Shown in pieces: positions 35,508 through 45,646 of a DNA stretch of 64,000 nucleotides. Position numbers and translations under genes: made by a program. Every line of letters starts with the position of its first letter. Positions within the stretch are counted from its first letter, which is position 1. The notes below the pieces were generated by a model that worked only from the letters and a program-made list of their open reading frames with translations, searched no databases and was not told where the DNA came from. This DNA comes from Tolypothrix brevis GSE-NOS-MK-07-07A (GTDB lineage Bacteria; Cyanobacteriota; Cyanobacteriia; Cyanobacteriales; Nostocaceae): contig JAHHIJ010000003.1 of the NCBI GenBank assembly GCA_019358985.1, forward strand, positions 186,001 through 250,000, in the 5' to 3' direction.

Positions 35508-36737
35508 ATGAACAGCTTTGATGTGCTGCAAGAAGCAGAAGAGGCACTGTTAGAGATTTTTTCTAAAATTGACACTCAGGTCAAGCATAATCTGAAACGA
35601 GTGCTGGATGCATTTCGCGATCGCCGTGTAGGTGCACACCATTTTGCTGGTGTAAGTGGTTATGGTCATGATGATTTAGGACGAGAAACTTTAGATAAAG
35701 TTTTTGCGGATGTGATGGGTGCTGAGGCGTCGGTGGTGCGGGTGCAGTTTGTTTCCGGAACCCATGCGATCGCTTGTGCTTTATATGGTGTCCTCCGTCC
35801 TGGGGATGAAATGCTTGCTGTTGTGGGGGCACCCTATGATACTCTCGAAGAAGTCATTGGTTTACGCGGTGAAAATCAAGGTTCTCTTCTTGATTTTGGC
35901 ATAAATTATCGACAATTGAATCTAACCCCTGAAGGAACCATCGATTGGCAAGCCTTAAGCCGGGGGGTAGAAAAAAATACTCGCTTAGTATTAATTCAGC
36001 GTTCTTGTGGCTATTCCTGGCGTCCAAGTTTATCAATTGCTGAGATTGAAAAAATTATCCACATAGTCAAACAGCAAAATCCCAACACCATTTGTTTTGT
36101 CGATAACTGCTACGGCGAATTTATCGAAACCAAAGAACCTACTGCCGTGGGTGCTGATTTAATGGCGGGATCATTAATTAAAAATCCTGGTGGTACAATT
36201 GTCAACGCAGGTGGATACATCGCCGGTCGTGCCGACTTAGTAGAAGCAGCCGCATGTCGCCTTACCGCACCGGGAATTGGTAGTTATGGTGGTGCGACTT
36301 TCGACCAAAATCGCATTCTCTTCCAAGGCTTATTTCTCGCTCCGCAGATGGTAGGAGAGGCGATGAAAGGAACTCACCTGACGGGTTATGTGTTTGATAA
36401 ACTTGGTTATCCGGTGAGTCCCGCACCTTTTGCACCCCGCCGCGATGTGATTCAATCAATTAAACTGGGTTCCGCAAAAAAGCTGATTGCCTTTTGTAAA
36501 GCGATACAACAGCATTCTCCCATTGGTTCCTATCTCGACCCCGTTCCAGATGAAATGCCTGGGTATGAGAGCCAGGTAGTGATGGCTGGAGGGACGTTTA
36601 TTGAGGGTAGTACTTCGGAGTTTTCCGCCGATGGTCCTTTGCGGGAGCCATATGTAGTTTATTGTCAAGGTGGCACTCATTGGACCCATGTAGCGATCGC
36701 ATTAGAAGCAGCGATCGAAGCTGTGGGAAAAGCGTAG
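35508..36737 (+). CDS. PLP-dependent enzyme of the aluminium-resistance / methionine gamma-lyase-like family
   Basis: The 409-residue protein matches PF06838 (aluminium resistance protein, Cys/Met metabolism PLP fold): GYGHDDLGRETLDKVFADV, FVSGTHAIACALYGVLRPGD, FVDNCYGEF, and the PLP-binding Lys225 in GSLIKNPGG. The reaction in cyanobacteria is not established; the family name comes from a plant/Arthrobacter observation. AGAGG lies 8 bp before ATG. Convergent with the WD40 gene. Confidence 0.88.
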   Translation: MNSFDVLQEAEEALLEIFSKIDTQVKHNLKRVLDAFRDRRVGAHHFAGVSGYGHDDLGRETLDKVFADVMGAEASVVRVQFVSGTHAIACALYGVLRPGDEMLAVVGAPYDTLEEVIGLRGENQGSLLDFGINYRQLNLTPEGTIDWQALSRGVEKNTRLVLIQRSCGYSWRPSLSIAEIEKIIHIVKQQNPNTICFVDNCYGEFIETKEPTAVGADLMAGSLIKNPGGTIVNAGGYIAGRADLVEAAACRLTAPGIGSYGGATFDQNRILFQGLFLAPQMVGEAMKGTHLTGYVFDKLGYPVSPAPFAPRRDVIQSIKLGSAKKLIAFCKAIQQHSPIGSYLDPVPDEMPGYESQVVMAGGTFIEGSTSEFSADGPLREPYVVYCQGGTHWTHVAIALEAAIEAVGKA

Positions 36738-36752
36738 AAGAGAAGTAGGGAA

Positions 36753-36785
36753 CTGACTTTTCCCGTTAAGTCTCAAAAAGCTTGC
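36753..36785. repeat. Left 33-bp inverted repeat of the CHAT-TIR/WD40 cassette
   Basis: The 33 bases at 36753-36785 are the reverse complement of 43350-43382 with one mismatch. The left copy begins CTGACTTTTCCCGTTAAG and ends AAAAAGCTTGC. It is 36 bp outside the stop of the WD40 gene. Confidence 0.93.
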
Positions 36786-36820
36786 TCATAATTGCTCTTT
36801 ATTAAATCCACAATCCTAAA

Positions 36821-39800
36821 TTACTGGGTTAAGGTAGCGATCGCCTCTCGAAACTTTTGCCAGATGAAACCACCAAAGGAATTAGCTGTTGACACACTAG
36901 AAGATTCTGGTTGGCTAGCAGGTTGATCTGGACAGGTTTTATGATAAGGTTGCTCCCCAAAAGCTTCTTGCCACTCTTGCGGAGTTAAATTGCGCCCTGC
37001 TGTGCGACAAGCGATATTGAGCAAGTCATCATTGCTGGTATGCACCCGCCAGAGACGTGCATCACTACTACCACTGAGCAGCCAGCGACTATCAGGGCTA
37101 AAGGCTAAAGACCCAACAGCACTATCATGTCCACGTAGCACAATGGGTGCAGCAGTGGGGTCAGTGGGATTCCATAAACGGATGGTCTGGTCTTCACTGG
37201 AGGTTGCTAGCCATTGGCTATCGGGGCTGAATTCTAGACCAAAAACACGTCCGCGATGTCCAGCCAGCAGATCCGGTTCTTTGGCAAGATTATTCATATC
37301 CTGTAACTTAACTTGAGAATTCCAAGAACCAGCAGCCAACCAGTGACCATCTGGACTGAAGGCAACTTGAACAACACGCCCAACTGGATCAAACTTAATA
37401 ATCTTTGCACTTGCTGAGGGGTTGCTAGATGTGAGATCCCACAGTTTAGCTGTACCGTCCCAGCTTGCTGTTGCTACCCACTTACTATTAGGACTCAATG
37501 CTACATCTGAAACGACATCGCAGTGAGCAGATAGAGAAATGGGATTGGGATTAGGATTCTTTTTGGTTAAATCCCAAACCAAGGTATTTCTGTCACTGCA
37601 ACCCGCTATATTACCACCAGTAACCAACCGACGCTCATCTGGGCTAAAAGCAAGCGATCGCACTCCATAGTTTTGCGTGTTTAGCACAAAGCTTGGCTCA
37701 GTTGGTAGACTGGGCTTTTTCATGTCCCATAATCGCACGGTTCCGTCGTAGCTGCCGGCGGCTAACCACCTACCAGTAGAACTGAATGCCATACTCCAGA
37801 AACTTGGTCCTTCGAGGATATGTGGCTGTGCAGTAGGATTGGTCATATCCCACAACCGCACAGTCCTATCAGGTCCAGTTGAAGCTAACCATTGCTGATT
37901 GGGGCTGAAAGCCAGACTGTAGATATCAGATGTGTGTCCGGCTAGCGAGATGAGTGGACGCAGCAGATCAGTGGTGTTCCACAGTCGAATGATTTTGTTG
38001 CGGCGGCTAGCACTTGCTATCCACTTGCCATCAGGGCTGATTGCAACTGCCGATACCCTATCTTTATCTTTAATCCCCGGCAGAACAATTGGGTCATTCA
38101 AAACGTTGGCAACTTTCCAAAGTCGGGCTTGAGTATCTTCGCTAGCAGTCGCTAACCATTGCCCATCCGCATCAAAGGTAATGGTATTAACCCATCCTTC
38201 ATGTCCTTGGAGAACTACAGGTGGAACAGATAAGTCGTTAATGTCCCATAATTTAGCTGTGCCGTCTCTACTGGCAGTTGCTAACCATTTGCCATTGGGA
38301 CTGAATTTGACTGCATCGACTGTAGCTTTGTGTCCCCCCAAAACAACGCGACAGACAGGATAATCTTCATCAGTTTGACAGGTGGAGGATTTAGTCTGTG
38401 AGGGCTTCAGGCTTTGCATATCCCACAGTTTCACATTTGCGTCTATGCTACCTGTGGCTAACCAGCGACTATCTAGGCTAAAGGCGATCGCGGTAATCCA
38501 TTGATCGTGTCTGCCTATAATTACAGATGAAGTATCAGCCAAATTCTTCGATTTTAAATCCCACACTTGCACAGAGTAGGATATACCAGCTGCCAAACGC
38601 TTTTCATCAGGACTGAAGGCAAGCCCCCGAATATTATCTTCATCACTATATTTTTTAGCCTTTAAAATGATGGGTTTGGCAGAAGAGCTAATCGCTGCCA
38701 TATCCCACAGTCGTACATCAATGTCAGTTTCATTGGTATATGCTCCACCTGTAGCCAACCATCGCCCAGAAGGACTGAAAACGATGTACCCAATCGAAGC
38801 ATTGTGTCCCTGTAGCAGTATATGTCTGGAGGCAGGCACTTGAGTTGTCAAATCCCAAAGTCTGATGGTAGTGTCTCCACCTGCTGTAGCCAGCCATTTA
38901 CTGTCAGGACTAAATGATAGTGCGTTTATTGCATCGGGAGATATCTGGTCTTTTGAATTCGCGTGCCCTTCCAGGATTAGCGGTTTGGTGGCAAAGTTGG
39001 GTGCAGTGAGATTCCAAAGTTGAATCTTGGTATTTTTACCGATCGCCCCTAACCATTTGCCATCGGGACTAATAGCAACAGTTTTTACCTCACCTATACT
39101 TCCCTGTAAAATAATCGCGGGTTTATCAGGATTGAGCTTATCCCATAAACGCACCGTTCCATCTTTGCTTCCTGTCGCCAACCAATTTCCTTTTGAGCTA
39201 AAAGCCACAGTAACCACTGGTTTCTCATGCCCAATCAACGGAGTACCGCCAATTTCACCTAGCAATCGACGCAACAACCCCCCCGCTTCTGTACGCCGGA
39301 AAATATCTTTACCTGTTTTGAGAGATTCAACTGCATCTGTTTTGAGAGATTCAACTGCAAATAAAAGGCTGCGTTGCGGAAATACGTCACGCAATGCTAA
39401 AGCCTGTCCTGCTAAGGTTTGAACTAATTTTGCTTTGTCAGCAATTTGGCGTTGTTTTGCTTCAGCTTTTTGAGCTGTTTCTGCCTGTTGTCGGCGTTCT
39501 TCGGCAGTTTTTCTGGCATCTACTGCAATTTGGCGTTGTTTTGCTTCGGCTATTTGGGCTGTTTCTGCCTGTTGTCGGCGTTGTTCAGCAGTTTTTCTGG
39601 CATCTACTGCAATTTGGCGTTGTTTTGCTTCAGCTATTTGGGCTGTTTCTGCCTGTTGTCGGCGTTCTTCGGCAGTTTTTCTGGCATCTACTGCAATTTG
39701 GCGTTGTTTTGCTTCAGCTATTTGGGCTGTTTCTGCCTGTTGTCGGCGTTCTTCGGCAGTTTTTCTGGCATCTACTGCAATTTGGCGTTGTTGTGCTTCT

Positions 39801-41176
39801 TGTTGTTGAGCGACTTCCGCTTTTTTCTTAGCTGCTTCCGCTTCTTGCTGACGTTTTTGGGCTAACTTTTGGGCTGCTTCGGCATTTTTTCTCTGCTGTT
39901 CTGCTATGAGGCGTTGTTCTTCTGCAATTTGACGTTGCTGATGTGCTTTTTTTGCATTCTGTTCGGCGATCGCTTTTTGTTGTTCTGCTTCCTGAGCTTT
40001 CCACCAACCAAATCCAGCCAAAGGTACTGAGGAAAATAAAATCAATCCAATCAAGACTACAGCCGCACGTTGTAGTCGTTTGGTCCAGTTAACAGGTAAA
40101 TGATTGCCAATCCAGGTATTATTAAATACTTGCCGATAAATAGCATTGCGAATTTTTAAGGTTTTGCCTTCACGCTTGACGACACCAGAAAGCTTCAGGT
40201 GAGATTTGACAAGGGACTGCTCCTCATCAATAACCGAATGGCGATCGCGCCACACTTGTTGATAAATACTGAGAACACTGATAATATCGGGCGCACGCTT
40301 AGTTAACATATCCCGCACAAATTGTAAGTTATTGTCTTGCTCGCTGGCATTGCCCAAGAACGTGCTGCCCACAACGCGATCAACCTCGACTTCCGACCAA
40401 TCGACTTGATTGCGATCGGCGAGAATGCGACAAAGACGCTGACTTAAATACGGATGTCCTCCTGTCCACTTCAACACCCATCGCAACACATTTTGTCCAG
40501 TCTCAATGGGTAATCCTAAGCCTGCGGCTAGGGGTTGCGCTTCCTCGAAGGTAAAATCTGTCAAATCTACCCGTTGTCCGATATTGAAGGGTGTACGCTT
40601 CGGATCGCGGATTAAATCGCCTGGTGTGGCTACACCAATCAAAACAAAAGAAAGGCGGCGGAATTCGGTATTTGTAGCCCGGGCGACGTGGAAATAACGA
40701 ATCGTTGCGTAAAAATCATCAGTGAAATCCAGGCTGAGGGTAGTGTCAATTTCATCAACAAAAATTACTACGGGAGCGGCGACTTCAATCAGCAAGACAT
40801 TCTGAAAAAACAGATTTAGCCGCTGGGTGACGCCCAAATGGTTATGCGTCTGCCACCACTGATTGACATCGGTATCTAGTATCAGTTGATTTGCAATCTC
40901 ATTGAGCAATCCTTGATACCATTGTTCAGCAGTTAAGTTGACACCTAAATTTCCGCTGATATCGATAATCACACATTGGACGCCTTGCTCTATCAACTGT
41001 TCTGCTGTCCGGATCATCAAGCTGGATTTTCCCAACTGGCGGGGAGTGAGGACGTATGCAAAGGTAGCATCACGACACAGTGCTAGTAGTTCTGCATCTG
41101 CCTGTCGAGGAATATACAACCCTCGTTCATTTGCCTGGACAGTACCGCCAACGGTGTAAATGGTAGGTTCAGCCAT
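36821..41176 (-). CDS. STAND-type (AAA_35-like) ATPase with coiled coil and WD40 repeats
   Basis: The 1451-residue protein has an N-terminal ATPase (about 1-360, TPRQLGKSSLM P-loop at about 44-54 and VIFVDEID Walker B), one membrane span at about 375-400 (AAVVLIGLILFSSVPLAGFGW), a 200-residue charged coiled coil including four 28-residue repeats (QIAVDARKTAEERRQQAETA), and about 16 WD40 units ending in xxLWD. Such proteins are membrane-attached signalling sensors in cyanobacteria; propellers would bind a trigger. ATG at 41176 overlaps the stop of the upstream CHAT-TIR gene by 8 bp (ATGGCTGA), so the two are coupled. Its ATPase is related to that of the partner. Confidence 0.9.
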   Translation of the reverse strand: MAEPTIYTVGGTVQANERGLYIPRQADAELLALCRDATFAYVLTPRQLGKSSLMIRTAEQLIEQGVQCVIIDISGNLGVNLTAEQWYQGLLNEIANQLILDTDVNQWWQTHNHLGVTQRLNLFFQNVLLIEVAAPVVIFVDEIDTTLSLDFTDDFYATIRYFHVARATNTEFRRLSFVLIGVATPGDLIRDPKRTPFNIGQRVDLTDFTFEEAQPLAAGLGLPIETGQNVLRWVLKWTGGHPYLSQRLCRILADRNQVDWSEVEVDRVVGSTFLGNASEQDNNLQFVRDMLTKRAPDIISVLSIYQQVWRDRHSVIDEEQSLVKSHLKLSGVVKREGKTLKIRNAIYRQVFNNTWIGNHLPVNWTKRLQRAAVVLIGLILFSSVPLAGFGWWKAQEAEQQKAIAEQNAKKAHQQRQIAEEQRLIAEQQRKNAEAAQKLAQKRQQEAEAAKKKAEVAQQQEAQQRQIAVDARKTAEERRQQAETAQIAEAKQRQIAVDARKTAEERRQQAETAQIAEAKQRQIAVDARKTAEQRRQQAETAQIAEAKQRQIAVDARKTAEERRQQAETAQKAEAKQRQIADKAKLVQTLAGQALALRDVFPQRSLLFAVESLKTDAVESLKTGKDIFRRTEAGGLLRRLLGEIGGTPLIGHEKPVVTVAFSSKGNWLATGSKDGTVRLWDKLNPDKPAIILQGSIGEVKTVAISPDGKWLGAIGKNTKIQLWNLTAPNFATKPLILEGHANSKDQISPDAINALSFSPDSKWLATAGGDTTIRLWDLTTQVPASRHILLQGHNASIGYIVFSPSGRWLATGGAYTNETDIDVRLWDMAAISSSAKPIILKAKKYSDEDNIRGLAFSPDEKRLAAGISYSVQVWDLKSKNLADTSSVIIGRHDQWITAIAFSLDSRWLATGSIDANVKLWDMQSLKPSQTKSSTCQTDEDYPVCRVVLGGHKATVDAVKFSPNGKWLATASRDGTAKLWDINDLSVPPVVLQGHEGWVNTITFDADGQWLATASEDTQARLWKVANVLNDPIVLPGIKDKDRVSAVAISPDGKWIASASRRNKIIRLWNTTDLLRPLISLAGHTSDIYSLAFSPNQQWLASTGPDRTVRLWDMTNPTAQPHILEGPSFWSMAFSSTGRWLAAGSYDGTVRLWDMKKPSLPTEPSFVLNTQNYGVRSLAFSPDERRLVTGGNIAGCSDRNTLVWDLTKKNPNPNPISLSAHCDVVSDVALSPNSKWVATASWDGTAKLWDLTSSNPSASAKIIKFDPVGRVVQVAFSPDGHWLAAGSWNSQVKLQDMNNLAKEPDLLAGHRGRVFGLEFSPDSQWLATSSEDQTIRLWNPTDPTAAPIVLRGHDSAVGSLAFSPDSRWLLSGSSDARLWRVHTSNDDLLNIACRTAGRNLTPQEWQEAFGEQPYHKTCPDQPASQPESSSVSTANSFGGFIWQKFREAIATLTQ
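39441..39792. repeat. Four 84-bp direct repeats in the WD40 gene
   Basis: The unit start GCAATTTGGCGTTG recurs at 39441, 39525, 39609, 39693 and (partly) 39777, spaced exactly 84 bp. The units are nearly identical and encode the 28-residue coiled-coil repeat. This length should be prone to copy-number change. Confidence 0.95.
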
Positions 41177-43313
41177 GCAGATGCTCCCGGAAGTAGTTGG
41201 CATAAAGTTGACAGCGCGGTATAATTACCTGACCTTCACGCCGGACTAAACCAGCTGCACTCAATAATCGGGCAATCCGCTCATCTGGACAGGTATTGTT
41301 GTGAATTGCTTGGAAAAATCCTTGCACCAGGTCTTTTTTTTCGTAGATGCGGAATAGGTGATAGCGCAGGTGATCGCCAAAGGGACCGCGATCGCTGATT
41401 GCTTGAGCAAACAGTTCCTCTACTGAAATCTGCTGGCTAGCAACTAAATACAGCGATCGCCGCACTAAATAAGGATGACCATGCAATAACCCCATCAACT
41501 GGCTTGCTTGCAACTGCGTCAAGGGTAAACCATGCCTGTGATTGAGATCGGCAACTTGTTCTGGTGTAAAGTCGTCAAGCAGGAGGACTTCGCCTACATT
41601 GAAGGGCGATTGATTCAGGTTGGCAATTAGATGATAGGGTTCGGTAGCAGTCACCAGCGCCAAGTCAAATTGTTTCCAGATCCGCTTAGTAGGTAAAGCG
41701 CGGTTATTGTGCCAACTGCGTAACATCCCAAAAAAGTCGGAACGAAACTCAGCATCAAACATCCGATCCACTTCATCCATTGCTAGCAGCAAGGAACCAC
41801 CGAGTTCTTTAAGCAGATAGGATTCCATATAGCGGTTGCAACGCTGATTGTTACCCACAGCTTGTTGCCATAATTCTTCAGTTCGATTAGGTATTCCCAG
41901 TTGTTCGGTTAAAACCGTACAAAATTGCTGATAAAAAATATCTGCATTGGTAAGGGTATTTTGATCAAATAATTGAAAATCCAAGAACGCCACGTGCTTT
42001 CCGACTTTCATCGCTGCATCGATCACCCGGATCAACAACGAACTTTTGCCCATTTGCCGCGGTCCTTTGATTGTTAAAGTGACTCCTCGTCGCCCGATTG
42101 TGGCGATCGCGATCGCATCTTGGGGGCGCTCGATGTAAAATTCCGACTCTGAGTCCATTGTCCCTTCTGGCATCTCCAGAGGTACTGGTTGAGCAGACGG
42201 AGATGGGCGCGGTAAAGATGCTTGTGGAGAAATTTGCAGCAAGTCGGCTTTAGACTGTTCTGTACTGATGGAAAGAGTATCACCTGCGATCGCCCGTCTT
42301 AACTCTTCAATCAAGTCGCCTGTATCTTCATTTCCTTCCCACAATGCCCAGTGGATGACGTTGAGATAAACACTCAGTGGATACTGAAACGGTTCTCGAT
42401 AGTCCAGACGTACTGGTAAAATTAGGGGATGTCCACCCTGCTCTTTTGCCAGACGGTATGCTGTGGCAATCTCAAGTTCCACCATTTCGCTGTGAACAGC
42501 TCGTTTTGAGAGAAAAACAATCAAAAAATCTGCCCGACGCAATTCAACTTCAATCCTTTCTGCCCAAGGCGTACCCACCAGCATCGCTTGATCGATGAAC
42601 ACCTCATGTTGTTGACTGAGTGCTTGAAACACCTGTAGCGCTACTGTTTCATCAGGTTCAGCGTTGCGTTTGTAGCTGATGAAAATGCGACTTTGCGGCG
42701 TTGTCAGCACTTTTTGGGCAGCTTGGGGAAAAGATGACCGTTTCTTGAGTATTGGTGTTGCTGACTCTGGAATACTCTCGAAGTCGATGGCAATACAACC
42801 CAATTCAAAAGCATCTTCTAGCGATCGCCCAGCACCCAATCCATCATAAAAGCCAACGGCAAATTTAATTGCGGCGCGATCGCCAATTGCCTGGTTCATC
42901 CCAACTACATAATCAATGTGTTGACAAATTGCTTCTGCTTGCACCTCGCTATAGCAAGCATTTAATAATACACACTCAACTTTATTTTGGAAAAGCCTGA
43001 ACAACCGCGCTAAAGATTGAGCGCTAACTAATTGCATCTTTCCCGCGCCGTCTTCCAGAATTAATCCTTGAGTACCTGCCCCATGTCCCGAAAAATGTAC
43101 AATTTGTGGCTCATGGTCCAACAATGCCCGTTGCAAATCATTAGGGCGTACCGCCCACCGGGAGATAATTTCAAACTGATCTCGGCTGCGTGACCGTTCT
43201 AAGCCTGTTTGAATTTCTCGTACCTCTTCATTTAGGCGTAAATTATCAGTGTCTTTGGGATTGGCTGTGAGAATCAGGATCTTTTTCACGGGGTGAGATT
43301 GAGGGCATGACAA
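41169..43313 (-). CDS. CHAT-TIR-STAND (AAA_35) fusion protein
   Basis: The 714-residue protein joins three signalling modules. Residues 10-190 are a CHAT caspase-like protease with His77 (VHFSGHGAG) and Cys120 (VLLNACYSE). Residues 207-345 are a TIR domain (SRIFISYKRNAEPDE, then ADFLIVFLSK and HSEMVELEI with a candidate catalytic Glu281). Residues 395-714 are a STAND-like ATPase (GPRQMGKSS at 417-425, LLLAMDEVD Walker B). TIR domains can cleave NAD+ and CHAT can activate downstream targets by cleavage; here they share one nucleotide switch. It is followed, with 8-bp overlap, by the WD40 ATPase gene. The cassette is IR-bounded. Confidence 0.92.
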   Translation of the reverse strand: MSCPQSHPVKKILILTANPKDTDNLRLNEEVREIQTGLERSRSRDQFEIISRWAVRPNDLQRALLDHEPQIVHFSGHGAGTQGLILEDGAGKMQLVSAQSLARLFRLFQNKVECVLLNACYSEVQAEAICQHIDYVVGMNQAIGDRAAIKFAVGFYDGLGAGRSLEDAFELGCIAIDFESIPESATPILKKRSSFPQAAQKVLTTPQSRIFISYKRNAEPDETVALQVFQALSQQHEVFIDQAMLVGTPWAERIEVELRRADFLIVFLSKRAVHSEMVELEIATAYRLAKEQGGHPLILPVRLDYREPFQYPLSVYLNVIHWALWEGNEDTGDLIEELRRAIAGDTLSISTEQSKADLLQISPQASLPRPSPSAQPVPLEMPEGTMDSESEFYIERPQDAIAIATIGRRGVTLTIKGPRQMGKSSLLIRVIDAAMKVGKHVAFLDFQLFDQNTLTNADIFYQQFCTVLTEQLGIPNRTEELWQQAVGNNQRCNRYMESYLLKELGGSLLLAMDEVDRMFDAEFRSDFFGMLRSWHNNRALPTKRIWKQFDLALVTATEPYHLIANLNQSPFNVGEVLLLDDFTPEQVADLNHRHGLPLTQLQASQLMGLLHGHPYLVRRSLYLVASQQISVEELFAQAISDRGPFGDHLRYHLFRIYEKKDLVQGFFQAIHNNTCPDERIARLLSAAGLVRREGQVIIPRCQLYANYFREHLHG

Positions 43314-43349
43314 TTTACAAAGAATATATTTTATATTAATCCTTTCTGG

Positions 43350-43382
43350 GCAAGCTTTTTGAGGCTTAACGGGAAAAGTCAG
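43350..43382. repeat. Right 33-bp inverted repeat of the CHAT-TIR/WD40 cassette
   Basis: Begins GCAAGCTTTTTGAGGCTTAA and ends GGGAAAAGTCAG. It matches the reverse complement of 36753-36785 at 32 of 33 positions and ends 37 bp upstream of the CHAT-TIR start codon. Confidence 0.93.
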
Positions 43383-43531
43383 GATTAGGGAAAGATGGAA
43401 AGAATAATTTGTGACCTTTTTTGAATTGGAGCGATCGCGCAGCGTCTCTGCTCATAGAAGCGACTTGACCCTTGACTAATGACCAATAGGCAGCCGATGT
43501 TGAAATTAATTATGCGTCACCCAGAACCCTT

Positions 43532-43573: not shown

Positions 43574-45169
43574 CTAATGACGTTCGATCGCATCTCTTGT
43601 AGTTTTGTAAGCCTCAATAAAAGTTCGGAAGGATTCTTGAGAAATTTCCTCTAAAATCAGTTTGTCTGCAACTTCCTTGAGAATTTCATCTATCTTCTGT
43701 TGAAGTACATCTTTAGTTTCTTTAGTATCGTGTAGTAATTCAACGATCGCTTTAATATATTTTGCAGAAACTTCTCGTTGCTTATATTCTATTTGTTGCT
43801 CAATAAGTTGTTTTTCGCGTTCTATTGCTTCGCGAGTTGTTTTGTAAGCTTCGTTAAAAGTTCGGAAGGATTCTTGAGAAATGCTCTCCAAAATCAGAGC
43901 ATCAGCAGCTTTCCTAAAAATTTCATCAAGTAACTTTTGGTTTTTTTCAAGGTCGTTTGGACTTGCTTTCATTAAATTAATAGCTGATGCAATATATTCA
44001 TCAGCCTCATTTTTTCGGCTACTTTCTATCCATATTTTCAGTTGTCTAATCCAGGAAACAACGACTACAATAACTGTTAAAATTAAAGCTAGATAGTCTG
44101 CATGTTCTTGCACAAAAGAGGGTTTATCTCGTTCATAAAAAGCAACTGCACCTGGATGAATAGGAGGGATACTACCACTTGTATTACTTGGACGGTCAAT
44201 ACTAGCAATCAAGGGTTTCACCTCAGGATGCTCTTTAGAAATGGCATTGGCTATTTCTTGACGATGCTCAAATATAATGCGAGTAATTTCTTGGATAACA
44301 CTTGCATCTACCGTATCTCTTACTACTAATATTCTTGATACTGCGACTGTTGGTAAGTCTTTGTCAGGTACCGCGAAATTGCCTTTGTATGCTCCTTGAG
44401 GAATTTCGGCGCTTTCAAAAGCAGGATGTTGAATTTTCATCGCTTTTGCCTGTTCAATAGACACCAATCTTCCATCGTAGTCTTTGACAAGCATAGAAAT
44501 ACCTTGGTTCCCTAAAGCGCGAACACGAAACAAAGCATCTACCGTTCTAGATTTAAAATCTTCTTCTGCTTGCTTATCATCGTAATTTTCATTATTACTT
44601 AAACCAGTAACTTTAATATCTAACGTTTTTTTATCTTCTTTTAGTAAACCGTAATGCTGTGCGACTTTATCAAAAGATTTGTATTGTCCTCCTTTAATAG
44701 GTAAAGCAACTCTTTTACCTCTCAAATCAGAGAATTGCTTGATATTTGGATCTCTAACTACTAGCTGAAATAAATCTTTATACAATATAGCCACGGTTCT
44801 AGACGATTGAGCTTTGGTACCAGATATTTCCTCAGAGGCAACGTCTGCTTGAGCTGTTGCTAACTGTGCAGTACCTTCTTGCAATTTTTTGAGGCTTTCT
44901 GCTGTACCCCCAGTAGATATGACTTCAATCTTAATACTGGAATTGCGTTCTACGACCTTTTCAATCGCTTCGCTGATAATATAACTTTCCCCTTCAGGAT
45001 CTCCTGCTGCGAGAGTGAGAGTAGATGACATCAAACCTCGAACTCGGAGGTTGTGATAGGTGGTTAGTGCAACTAAACTTAAGCTGGCAAATCCCAAGCA
45101 AATAAAGATGAATTTGGATAAAGGGTCGAGATTGCGAAAAAAGCTCAGGAAATTGAATTTAACTGTCAT
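43574..45169 (-). CDS. TAXI-family solute-binding protein with C-terminal membrane and coiled-coil part
   Basis: The 531-residue protein starts with a membrane anchor (FIFICLGFASLSLVALTTY) and a TAXI (TRAP-type) binding domain (LTLAAGDPEGESYIISEAIE, then STGGTAESLKKL and GKRVALPIKGG). A second membrane span (about 358-378) follows, and then a cytoplasmic tail with a duplicated 33-residue block (ILESISQESFRTFNEAYKTT and ILEEISQESFRTFIEAYKTT). No TRAP membrane subunits are nearby. The layout suggests a two-span sensor rather than a transporter component; that is inference. Confidence 0.8.
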   Translation of the reverse strand: MTVKFNFLSFFRNLDPLSKFIFICLGFASLSLVALTTYHNLRVRGLMSSTLTLAAGDPEGESYIISEAIEKVVERNSSIKIEVISTGGTAESLKKLQEGTAQLATAQADVASEEISGTKAQSSRTVAILYKDLFQLVVRDPNIKQFSDLRGKRVALPIKGGQYKSFDKVAQHYGLLKEDKKTLDIKVTGLSNNENYDDKQAEEDFKSRTVDALFRVRALGNQGISMLVKDYDGRLVSIEQAKAMKIQHPAFESAEIPQGAYKGNFAVPDKDLPTVAVSRILVVRDTVDASVIQEITRIIFEHRQEIANAISKEHPEVKPLIASIDRPSNTSGSIPPIHPGAVAFYERDKPSFVQEHADYLALILTVIVVVVSWIRQLKIWIESSRKNEADEYIASAINLMKASPNDLEKNQKLLDEIFRKAADALILESISQESFRTFNEAYKTTREAIEREKQLIEQQIEYKQREVSAKYIKAIVELLHDTKETKDVLQQKIDEILKEVADKLILEEISQESFRTFIEAYKTTRDAIERH

Positions 45170-45338: not shown

Positions 45339-45420
45339 TTTTTTTAACGCAAAGGGACGCAGAGTAAGCGCAGAGGGACGCAGAGTTTTTCTGAATTTAA
45401 TTCGTTACGAACTTGTGCAA
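45339..45420. repeat. 82-bp dispersed repeat, copy 1
   Basis: Contains TTTAACGCAAAGGGACGCAG, AGTAAGCGCAGAGGGACGCA and ends GAACTTGTGCAA. The copy at 58112-58193 differs at about two positions, both C/T. Confidence 0.85.
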
Positions 45421-45528
45421 AATTGTACTTAGATGCTGTAGTTCGGAGCAACTTGCAAACTCTGATTTTATACAAAGAAGCCCTCGCTGCTCAAAATTTA
45501 TTGGCAACGAGAGCGTCGGATCACGATA

Positions 45529-45614
45529 TACAGCAGATTTGAGGTAAATGAAATACATATATAAAACCCAAAACTTTGTAGAGACGTAGCAGTGCTACGT
45601 CTTTACGTGTATTC
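45529..45614 (+). mobile_element. MITE-like repeat, TACAGCAGATTT family, copy 3
   Basis: Starts TACAGCAGATTTGAGG, includes ATATATAAAACCC and a GTAGAGACGTAGCAGTGCTACG core (45578-45606), ends GTGTATTC. Same layout as 6762-6850 read on the minus strand. Confidence 0.7.
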
Positions 45615-45646
45615 CATTAGAGCGATAGAGTGCTGTAAAGCCTATC

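Follow-up and report, generated by a model that had tools for sequence, protein, structure and literature searches.

A WRAP-type CHAT-TIR-STAND/STAND-WD40 operon between IS50/Tn5-like ends in Tolypothrix brevis: a probable transposase-less transposon

Introduction

Caspase-like, TIR and STAND modules take part in immunity and cell death in plants and animals. In cyanobacteria, a conserved operon type, known as "WRAP", couples a STAND-WD40 gene to a TIR-STAND gene (PMC9218822, citing Dunin-Horkawicz et al. (2014)). In the passages of that paper that deal with these operons, the TIR-STAND partner is said to carry, in certain cyanobacteria, an extra caspase domain at its N-terminus, and the operon type is taken as probable innate immunity. 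A passage of PMC6805158 names 2YMU as the WRAP propeller. According to parts of PMC8195603, nSTAND2 is a mobile two-gene operon in which both proteins have a STAND NTPase core, one NTPase being eroded, and this eroded-NTPase operon most often carries GT4 or HEPN. Here we describe an operon of the WRAP type that lies between inverted repeats at positions 36753-43382 of a 64,000-nucleotide stretch of Tolypothrix brevis GSE-NOS-MK-07-07A (contig JAHHIJ010000003.1, positions 186,001 to 250,000), the whole of which is referred to as the window in this study. We consider it probable that this unit is a transposase-less IS4/IS50 (Tn5)-like transposon carrying a complete WRAP-type operon, which would work as a defence or death switch resembling the NLR (nucleotide-binding leucine-rich repeat) proteins.

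The possible vehicles for such a unit are also of known kinds. Tn5 has inverted outer ends of the same type, starting with CTGACT. Mobile insertion cassettes consist of the ends of IS4-family insertion sequences (ISs) around cargo genes without a transposase, and they are presumably moved in trans. The relevant parts of PMC2266710 place IS50 in the IS4 family, give the target duplication of this family as about 10 bp, and include in the family mobile insertion cassettes such as MIC231. In the titles and abstracts of the papers listed, no operon of the present type was reported inside IS ends, with the reservation that the 2014 operon paper may mention transposons. The kind of vehicle and the kind of cargo are both known, and their joining is fairly well supported and informative. 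It provides an actual vehicle, along with empty sites for comparison, for studying how a two-protein NLR-like system of caspase-like, TIR and STAND modules spreads.

Results

Two coupled genes between inverted repeats

The left repeat (36753-36785, plus strand) and the right repeat (43350-43382, minus strand) are identical at 32 of 33 positions, as the original prediction for this DNA had stated. With one degenerate position and up to three mismatches allowed, the 33-bp sequence gave two matches in the window and none in 100 shuffles, and ungapped extension of the arms reached 55 nt at 82% identity. The cassette measures 6,630 bp from tip to tip. Its cargo of about 6.5 kb consists of two minus-strand genes: gene 1 (41169-43289), coding for a CHAT-TIR-AAA_35 protein, the proposed effector; and gene 2 (36821-41176), coding for an AAA_35 STAND-type ATPase followed by a hydrophobic segment, a coiled linker and WD40 repeats. 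In the list of open reading frames, only short overlapping frames and no other evident gene were present between the repeats, in agreement with the earlier claim that nothing else lies inside. The G+C content is 46.3% in the cassette and 41.3% in the remainder of the window.

Gene 1 was taken to start at a GTG (43289), its frame being open back to a TTG at 43313. Most gene 1 homologues align from residue 8-9 onward, where the window has this GTG, and the frame has GTG as its earliest start codon in Nostoc sp. CHAB 5836 and another genome (G018). With this start, gene 1 lies about 60 bp from its repeat, and gene 2 about 35 bp from the other. The almost equal distances reported earlier (36 and 37 bp) need the TTG start, and since they depend on this unlikely start codon, equal spacing carries no weight. 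The reported 8-bp overlap of the two genes holds with ATG 41176 as the start of gene 2; a longer frame from ATG 41203 would give an overlap of 35 bp.

The repeats as IS50/Tn5-like ends

The host genome (6.52 Mb, 74 contigs; G000) was searched for the repeat, and the 33-bp sequence was found at five places with up to three mismatches and an 18-bp core at 11 places with up to two. A decayed IS copy of 1,017 bp lies on one contig (C1): two cores in facing orientation enclose the remains of a transposase, and a perfect 10-bp duplication, AACCCTTGAC, borders the copy. In Pfam, the transposase matches Tnp_DNA_bind (1.7e-9) and, below the cut-off, Dimer_Tnp_Tn5 (5e-5) and DDE_Tnp_1 (7e-4). Other genomes of the family have longer IS copies of about 1.5 kb; among 145 genomes, the 33-bp pattern was present in 33 and the exact core in 55. 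An exact 9- or 10-bp duplication borders five of 14 end pairs, and a sixth pair matches at 10 of 11 positions. Judged by their sequence, the cassette repeats are the ends of an IS4-family, IS50/Tn5-like IS.

The two cassette ends were compared with the left ends of four IS copies and the right ends of three, the right end of the host's own copy being left out. The first 33 bp of the left cassette end gave 30-32 matches to IS left ends vs 22-23 to right ends, and those of the right cassette end gave 29-31 vs 21-22; by this comparison, both cassette ends are of the left-end type. IS-derived sequence amounts to only about 38-50 bp at each cassette end (the similarity continues to about 36790 on the left and extends about 50 bp inward on the right), the IS body and transposase are absent, and no further IS core was found inside 36753-43382 at up to four mismatches. 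The original prediction had held that a dispersed repeat would speak against a cassette; the repeat is indeed dispersed over five places in the genome, but its being an IS end explains this, and the cassette reading is thereby strengthened instead of refuted.

With the C-terminal 166 residues of the relic transposase as the query, the only match in the host genome was the relic itself. As this broken relic is the one matching transposase that turned up in the genome, the cassette is probably immobile today and probably stranded.

Like a mobile insertion cassette, the unit has IS ends around cargo and no transposase. It differs from MIC231 in that its ends are IS50-like rather than IS231, in that both are of the left-end type, and in its cargo, a 6.5-kb immune-like operon. 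With Tn5 and IS50 it shares two inverted outer ends of the same type and target duplications near 9-10 bp, but unlike a composite transposon it has no IS copy or transposase at either end. An origin from a composite transposon is nevertheless possible because both ends are of the left-end type: such ends suggest an inverted composite that has lost its IS bodies, whereas swapping the transposase of a single IS for the cargo would give one end of each type.

Probable insertion between two genes that are neighbours elsewhere

The ten bases outside the left tip, AAGTAGGGAA (36743-36752), and those outside the right tip, GATTAGGGAA (43383-43392), are identical at eight of ten positions, a match expected with a frequency of 0.0006 for random pairs of window positions and 0.0013 for nearby offsets. 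By their sequence, these flanks resemble an eroded 10-bp target duplication.

Outside the cassette lie, on the left, a methionine gamma-lyase-like gene (MGL; 35508-36737, plus strand) and, on the right, an NMT1-like gene (43574-45169, minus strand), both assigned by Pfam and neighbour comparison. In the empty-site search of the 145 genomes, 28 others contain the NMT1-like gene. Eleven of these have MGL immediately beside the NMT1-like gene in convergent orientation, with no cassette and 19-1,150 bp in between (gaps measured in ten; the eleventh, G095, is taken from the neighbour listing), and in four of these 11 the next gene is PhoX, as in the gene order of the window. In the other 17 genomes, MGL was not seen within 1.5 kb of the NMT1-like gene. 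Most likely, the unit entered this site as a transposase-less transposon.

The gene pair in other genomes

Downstream of gene 1, a gene 2 with AAA_35 is present in 49 of 51 copies read with their flanks, some loci in this set being near-duplicates, such as L035 and L106, whose values are identical. The expectation that the two genes always co-occur is thus borne out nearly fully; the contig ends 199 and 1,148 bp away from the two copies that lack gene 2. Among the 49 linked copies, 32 have a gene 2 match that starts 20-35 bp before the gene 1 stop codon.

DNA similarity to the closest pairs ends just inside the repeats, at 36828-43336 for CHAB 5836 and at 36837-43328 for Nostoc sp. CHAB 5844, and the surroundings differ. 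At the DNA level, identity to CHAB 5836 is 91% over the gene 1 region, vs 82% for the flanking DNA used as a yardstick (a single 2.1-kb stretch of MGL/desaturase DNA). In the genus-mates, the yardstick is 93-95% identical, whereas the best full-length gene 1 is 62% identical (G070) and the others are partial, for example a CHAT domain alone at about 70%. These comparisons suggest horizontal gain. Plasmid matches were mostly partial, two of 21 records covering 80%.

Whether a transposon regularly carries the operon was also considered, and this was rejected. Among 60 loci, the core (up to three mismatches) was seen only in L029, L034 and L037; in the last two it lies kilobases from the match, and in L029 a 15/18 site precedes gene 1 by 147 bp but faces away from it. 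In a test for flanking inverted repeats at 38 loci including the window, the window scored 30. L080 (29), L076 (24), L077 (24) and L082 (15) owe their scores to C-rich low-complexity DNA, and the other 33 loci scored 11 or less (control pairs: 95% point 11, 99% point 14, maximum 26).

Some pairs have a gap between the two genes, but a third gene as a general component was likewise rejected: at eight such loci, the gap is filled by low-complexity or repeat-like DNA, by a small gene or by a PIN/antitoxin-like pair. In L080 and L082, the gap of about 0.85 kb contains what we take to be a gene for a small helical-bundle-like protein; in L108 and L109, the operon is split by what is presumably a PIN-toxin/antitoxin-like gene pair. 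In G018, the gene 2 homologue (L073:10777-11922) has 381 codons and joins about half of the ATPase domain to WD40 blades, beside a gene 1 that is 86% identical; this short homologue arose perhaps by an in-frame internal deletion.

Gene 1, a CHAT-TIR-AAA_35 protein

Pfam and alignment place in gene 1 a caspase-like CHAT domain (42810-43274), a TIR domain of the TIR_2 type (42327-42686) and an AAA_35 STAND-type domain (41184-42173), all on the minus strand. Among 50 aligned gene 1 proteins (window included; numbering from TTG 43313), His77 of the CHAT domain, Glu281 of the TIR domain, and Lys423, Asp513 and Glu514 are present in all 50, and Cys120 of the CHAT domain in 49. By sequence, the CHAT part matches the SAVED-CHAT structure 8tl0 (5.2e-14).

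An AlphaFold2 model made from ten sequences had a mean predicted local distance difference test score (pLDDT) of 79.7 and a predicted TM-score (pTM) of 0.48. Foldseek matched it to the plant TIR-NLR protein RPP1 (4.5e-12, TMq 0.31), the same SAVED-CHAT structure, an activated filament (2.3e-9), and the phage receptor Avs3 (1.9e-7), and also to the phage receptor Avs4, CED-4 and archaeal AAA+/Walker-type ATPases, with many unrelated AAA+ proteins lower in the list. The domain identities are secure, but the domain arrangement is not.

Gene 2, a STAND-WD40 protein with a variable proposed sensor part

Gene 2 has its AAA_35 domain at 40121-41122, assigned by Pfam and alignment, and one hydrophobic segment near residue 380. 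The linker contains 84-bp (28-residue) tandem repeats at 39441-39860, found by repeat search. The WD40 region, proposed as the sensor, spans approximately 37031-39240 according to Pfam and the divergence scan (minus strand throughout). With numbering from ATG 41203, all 46 gene 2 proteins compared have the Walker residues Lys59 (Walker A) and Asp150 and Glu151 (Walker B), and a simple hydropathy scan detected a hydrophobic segment near residue 370-465 in 34 of 42. Of eight gene 2 partners examined with Pfam, four have CHASE2, two have WD40 (L086 just below the cut-off) and two have no recognised C-terminal domain; the remaining partners are mostly WD40 proteins, as judged by motif only.

Compared with CHAB 5836, gene 1 shows a synonymous divergence (dS) of 0.25 and a ratio of nonsynonymous to synonymous divergence (dN/dS) of 0.16, its protein being 92% identical. 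In gene 2, dS is about 0.31 for residues 1-300 and 0.29 for residues 1301-1400; between them, in residues 301-1200, it runs from 0.34 (601-700) through 0.55 up to saturation. Of the nine blocks that make up residues 301-1200, eight have a protein identity of 43-74%, and block 601-700 has 84%. At a finer scale the changes are sharp, with conserved islands at residues 476-525 and 651-725 and, less so, at 1001-1075. Moreover, the window scores higher against CHAB 5844 than against CHAB 5836 in segments 301-600, 601-700 and 701-1200, whereas segments 1-300 and 1251-1451 score higher against CHAB 5836.

The simplest reading of this mosaic, on sequence grounds, would be an exchange of the coil and propeller by recombination in one lineage. 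The linker aligns to its relatives with gaps, and repeat misalignment there may add to the divergence. Such a mosaic fits a sensor under pressure to change without proving the sensor role. The pair in CHAB 5836, with its 92%-identical effector and strongly diverged sensor, offers a natural comparison for what the WD40 sensor recognises. The linker also carries a 23-nt perfect direct repeat within window positions 39313-39359.

Discussion

Relation to described systems

The operon type was already known, as indicated by the available WRAP description (PMC9218822) and by the match of a gene 2 homologue at locus L105 to 2YMU over 573 residues (808 bits, 9.7e-242). The N-terminal part of this homologue is 62% identical to the gene 2 protein of the window, so that the relation to the Npun_R6612 propeller runs via L105, not via the window's own propeller. 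The likeness to the operon of Npun_R6612 and its TIR-STAND partner lies in the coupled STAND-WD40 and TIR-STAND genes. Near-identical amplified blades are a trait of the name-giving member, whereas the blades of the window are not near-identical: a 38-nt stretch has 14 further copies, only 61-79% identical to the reference copy. The window pair also differs in lying between Tn5-like ends, and some homologous pairs have CHASE2 instead of WD40.

In contrast to nSTAND2, the Walker sites are intact in both proteins of the window pair, with Walker A and B residues that do not vary among 50 gene 1 and 46 gene 2 proteins, and the NTPase is Pfam AAA_35. The antiviral Avs proteins and the plant TIR-NLR RPP1 share with the pair a STAND core, an N-terminal effector and a C-terminal repeat sensor, as well as the structural matches, but here effector and sensor are split over two proteins, and PADLOC gave no match to an Avs family.

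Proposed mechanism and function

Our results are consistent with the following scenario: a transposase-less Tn5-like transposon with the WRAP-type operon as its sole cargo would have been inserted between the MGL and NMT1-like genes, by cut-and-paste movement through a Tn5-like transposase acting in trans, or via two inverted IS copies that have since decayed; the membrane-anchored STAND-WD40 protein of gene 2 would sense a ligand; its AAA_35 module would assemble with that of gene 1; gene 1 would then release CHAT protease and TIR NADase activity; and the cell would be killed or arrested, as by an NLR-like defence or death switch. That the WD40 protein senses and the CHAT-TIR protein executes, as first proposed, fits the conservation, the sensor variation and the reading in the relevant passages of PMC9218822, and we infer a defence or immune function of the pair. 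We further suggest, tentatively and with considerable doubt, that transposase-free cassettes in which Tn5-like ends enclose a stand-alone NLR-like operon, pared down nearly to its open reading frames, are, together with recombinational coil/propeller exchange between copies, a route by which immune receptors are distributed and re-armed in multicellular cyanobacteria.

The pair might instead be a signalling or developmental switch, serving cell-cell recognition, stress or a cell-death programme without an anti-phage role. The CHASE2 partners point to small-molecule sensing (CHASE2 is so described in part of PMC8195603), kin or non-self recognition has been proposed for related systems in passages of PMC10907252, and no homologue was found at E 1e-10 in 50,697 phage records, though this is neutral for a host defence gene. 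We regard this explanation as rather unlikely, given that the combination of CHAT, TIR and STAND, the patchy distribution, the sensor variation and the mobility are typical of conflict systems, and that PMC9218822, where it treats this operon type, reads it as probable innate immunity.

How the pair came to lie between the ends

Alternatively, two ISs might have inserted independently, one to the left and one to the right of a pair that never moved with them, and might since have decayed to stubs. Solo decayed ends of the IS do occur elsewhere in the host genome (C29, C60, C44 and C45). C60 (L019:4349-14541) has two one-mismatch cores in facing orientation, with 10,193 bp of ordinary genes between them; these two ends are 23/33 alike and have no target duplication, and are apparently a chance pair. 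The flanking 10-mers of the cassette, moreover, are not identical. For the window, however, both stubs would need to be outward left ends that are 32/33 alike, and both would need to have been trimmed to about 35-60 bp from the genes with no further core inside, while the flanks match at 8/10 over exactly the length duplicated around the IS copy of the host genome, and MGL and the NMT1-like gene adjoin each other in other genomes. We therefore consider independent insertions improbable. An invertible switch, or a regulatory or terminator element, is hardly credible. Inverted repeats do flank the operon, and a weak terminator-like stem (36748-36764) overlaps the left end, but such sites are no commoner in the region than in shuffles (eight vs a mean of 7.6). 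The repeats equal the ends of IS copies that have transposase genes and partly also target duplications, the list of open reading frames shows no evident recombinase frame between the repeats, and no other pair locus has inward repeats. A promoter scan (eight found vs 9.9 expected) was uninformative.

Carriage by a transposase-less transposon accounts best for these observations. Of the original interpretation, movement of the unit as a cassette is supported, as something that happened in the past, by the IS ends, the flanks resembling an eroded 10-bp duplication and the gene-order empty sites; the linkage of the two genes is supported too, whereas inversion of the unit is not. Several points weigh against our reading, however. 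For the site, they are: the duplication is imperfect (8/10), and no duplication is present in eight of the 14 end pairs; three sister copies of the IS have 9-bp duplications, and in that register the cassette flanks match at 4/9, so that the support from the duplication rests on the 10-bp register of the host's own copy and one other; facing ends alone prove little, because the C60 pair faces without a duplication; and the empty sites, which the original prediction had proposed to look for, are found by gene order, the intergenic DNA being too diverged to align the exact join. Within the genus no empty site was found; four genus-mates (one 54% complete) have no NMT1-like gene at the cut-off, MGL being followed by PhoX in G070, by other genes in G021 and G124, and by the contig end in G096.

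For the operon, the sign of transfer is not uniform, as the CHAB 5844 pair is 78-79% identical vs 82% for the yardstick and that of G018 82.6% vs 79%. No other pair locus has the IS ends facing into the pair, and transposon carriage is therefore a local event rather than the usual way in which the operon spreads. With respect to function, PADLOC gave partial chat, SAVED_CHAT and TIR matches only, with no full-length match to a system; the NCBIfam model ThcB4 (Thoeris type III) scored 32 bits vs a cut-off of 220; and the whole-protein TM-scores (0.31 for RPP1) and the pTM of 0.48 are low.

Additional observations

Two elements of about 165 bp carry the same core at both ends (G000:C24:876-1042, L017/L186, in the host genome; and L037:6212-6377 in a Rhizonema metagenome-assembled genome), and they look like miniature inverted-repeat transposable elements of the IS that supplied the cassette ends. 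In G098, an IS copy (L177:1341-4528; 3,188 bp in total) encloses a second transposase-like gene. Other passenger cassettes with these ends were also sought in the 145 genomes; among the pairs listed and inspected by eye, this 3,188-bp unit was the only plausible one beyond about 1.6 kb.

The 3' part of the NMT1-like gene contains an internal duplication (43581-43690 and 43818-43927, 78% identity). Further along the window, two stretches of about 100 bp (45340-45432 and 45529-45637) have many dispersed copies in the host genome and in the genus-mates.

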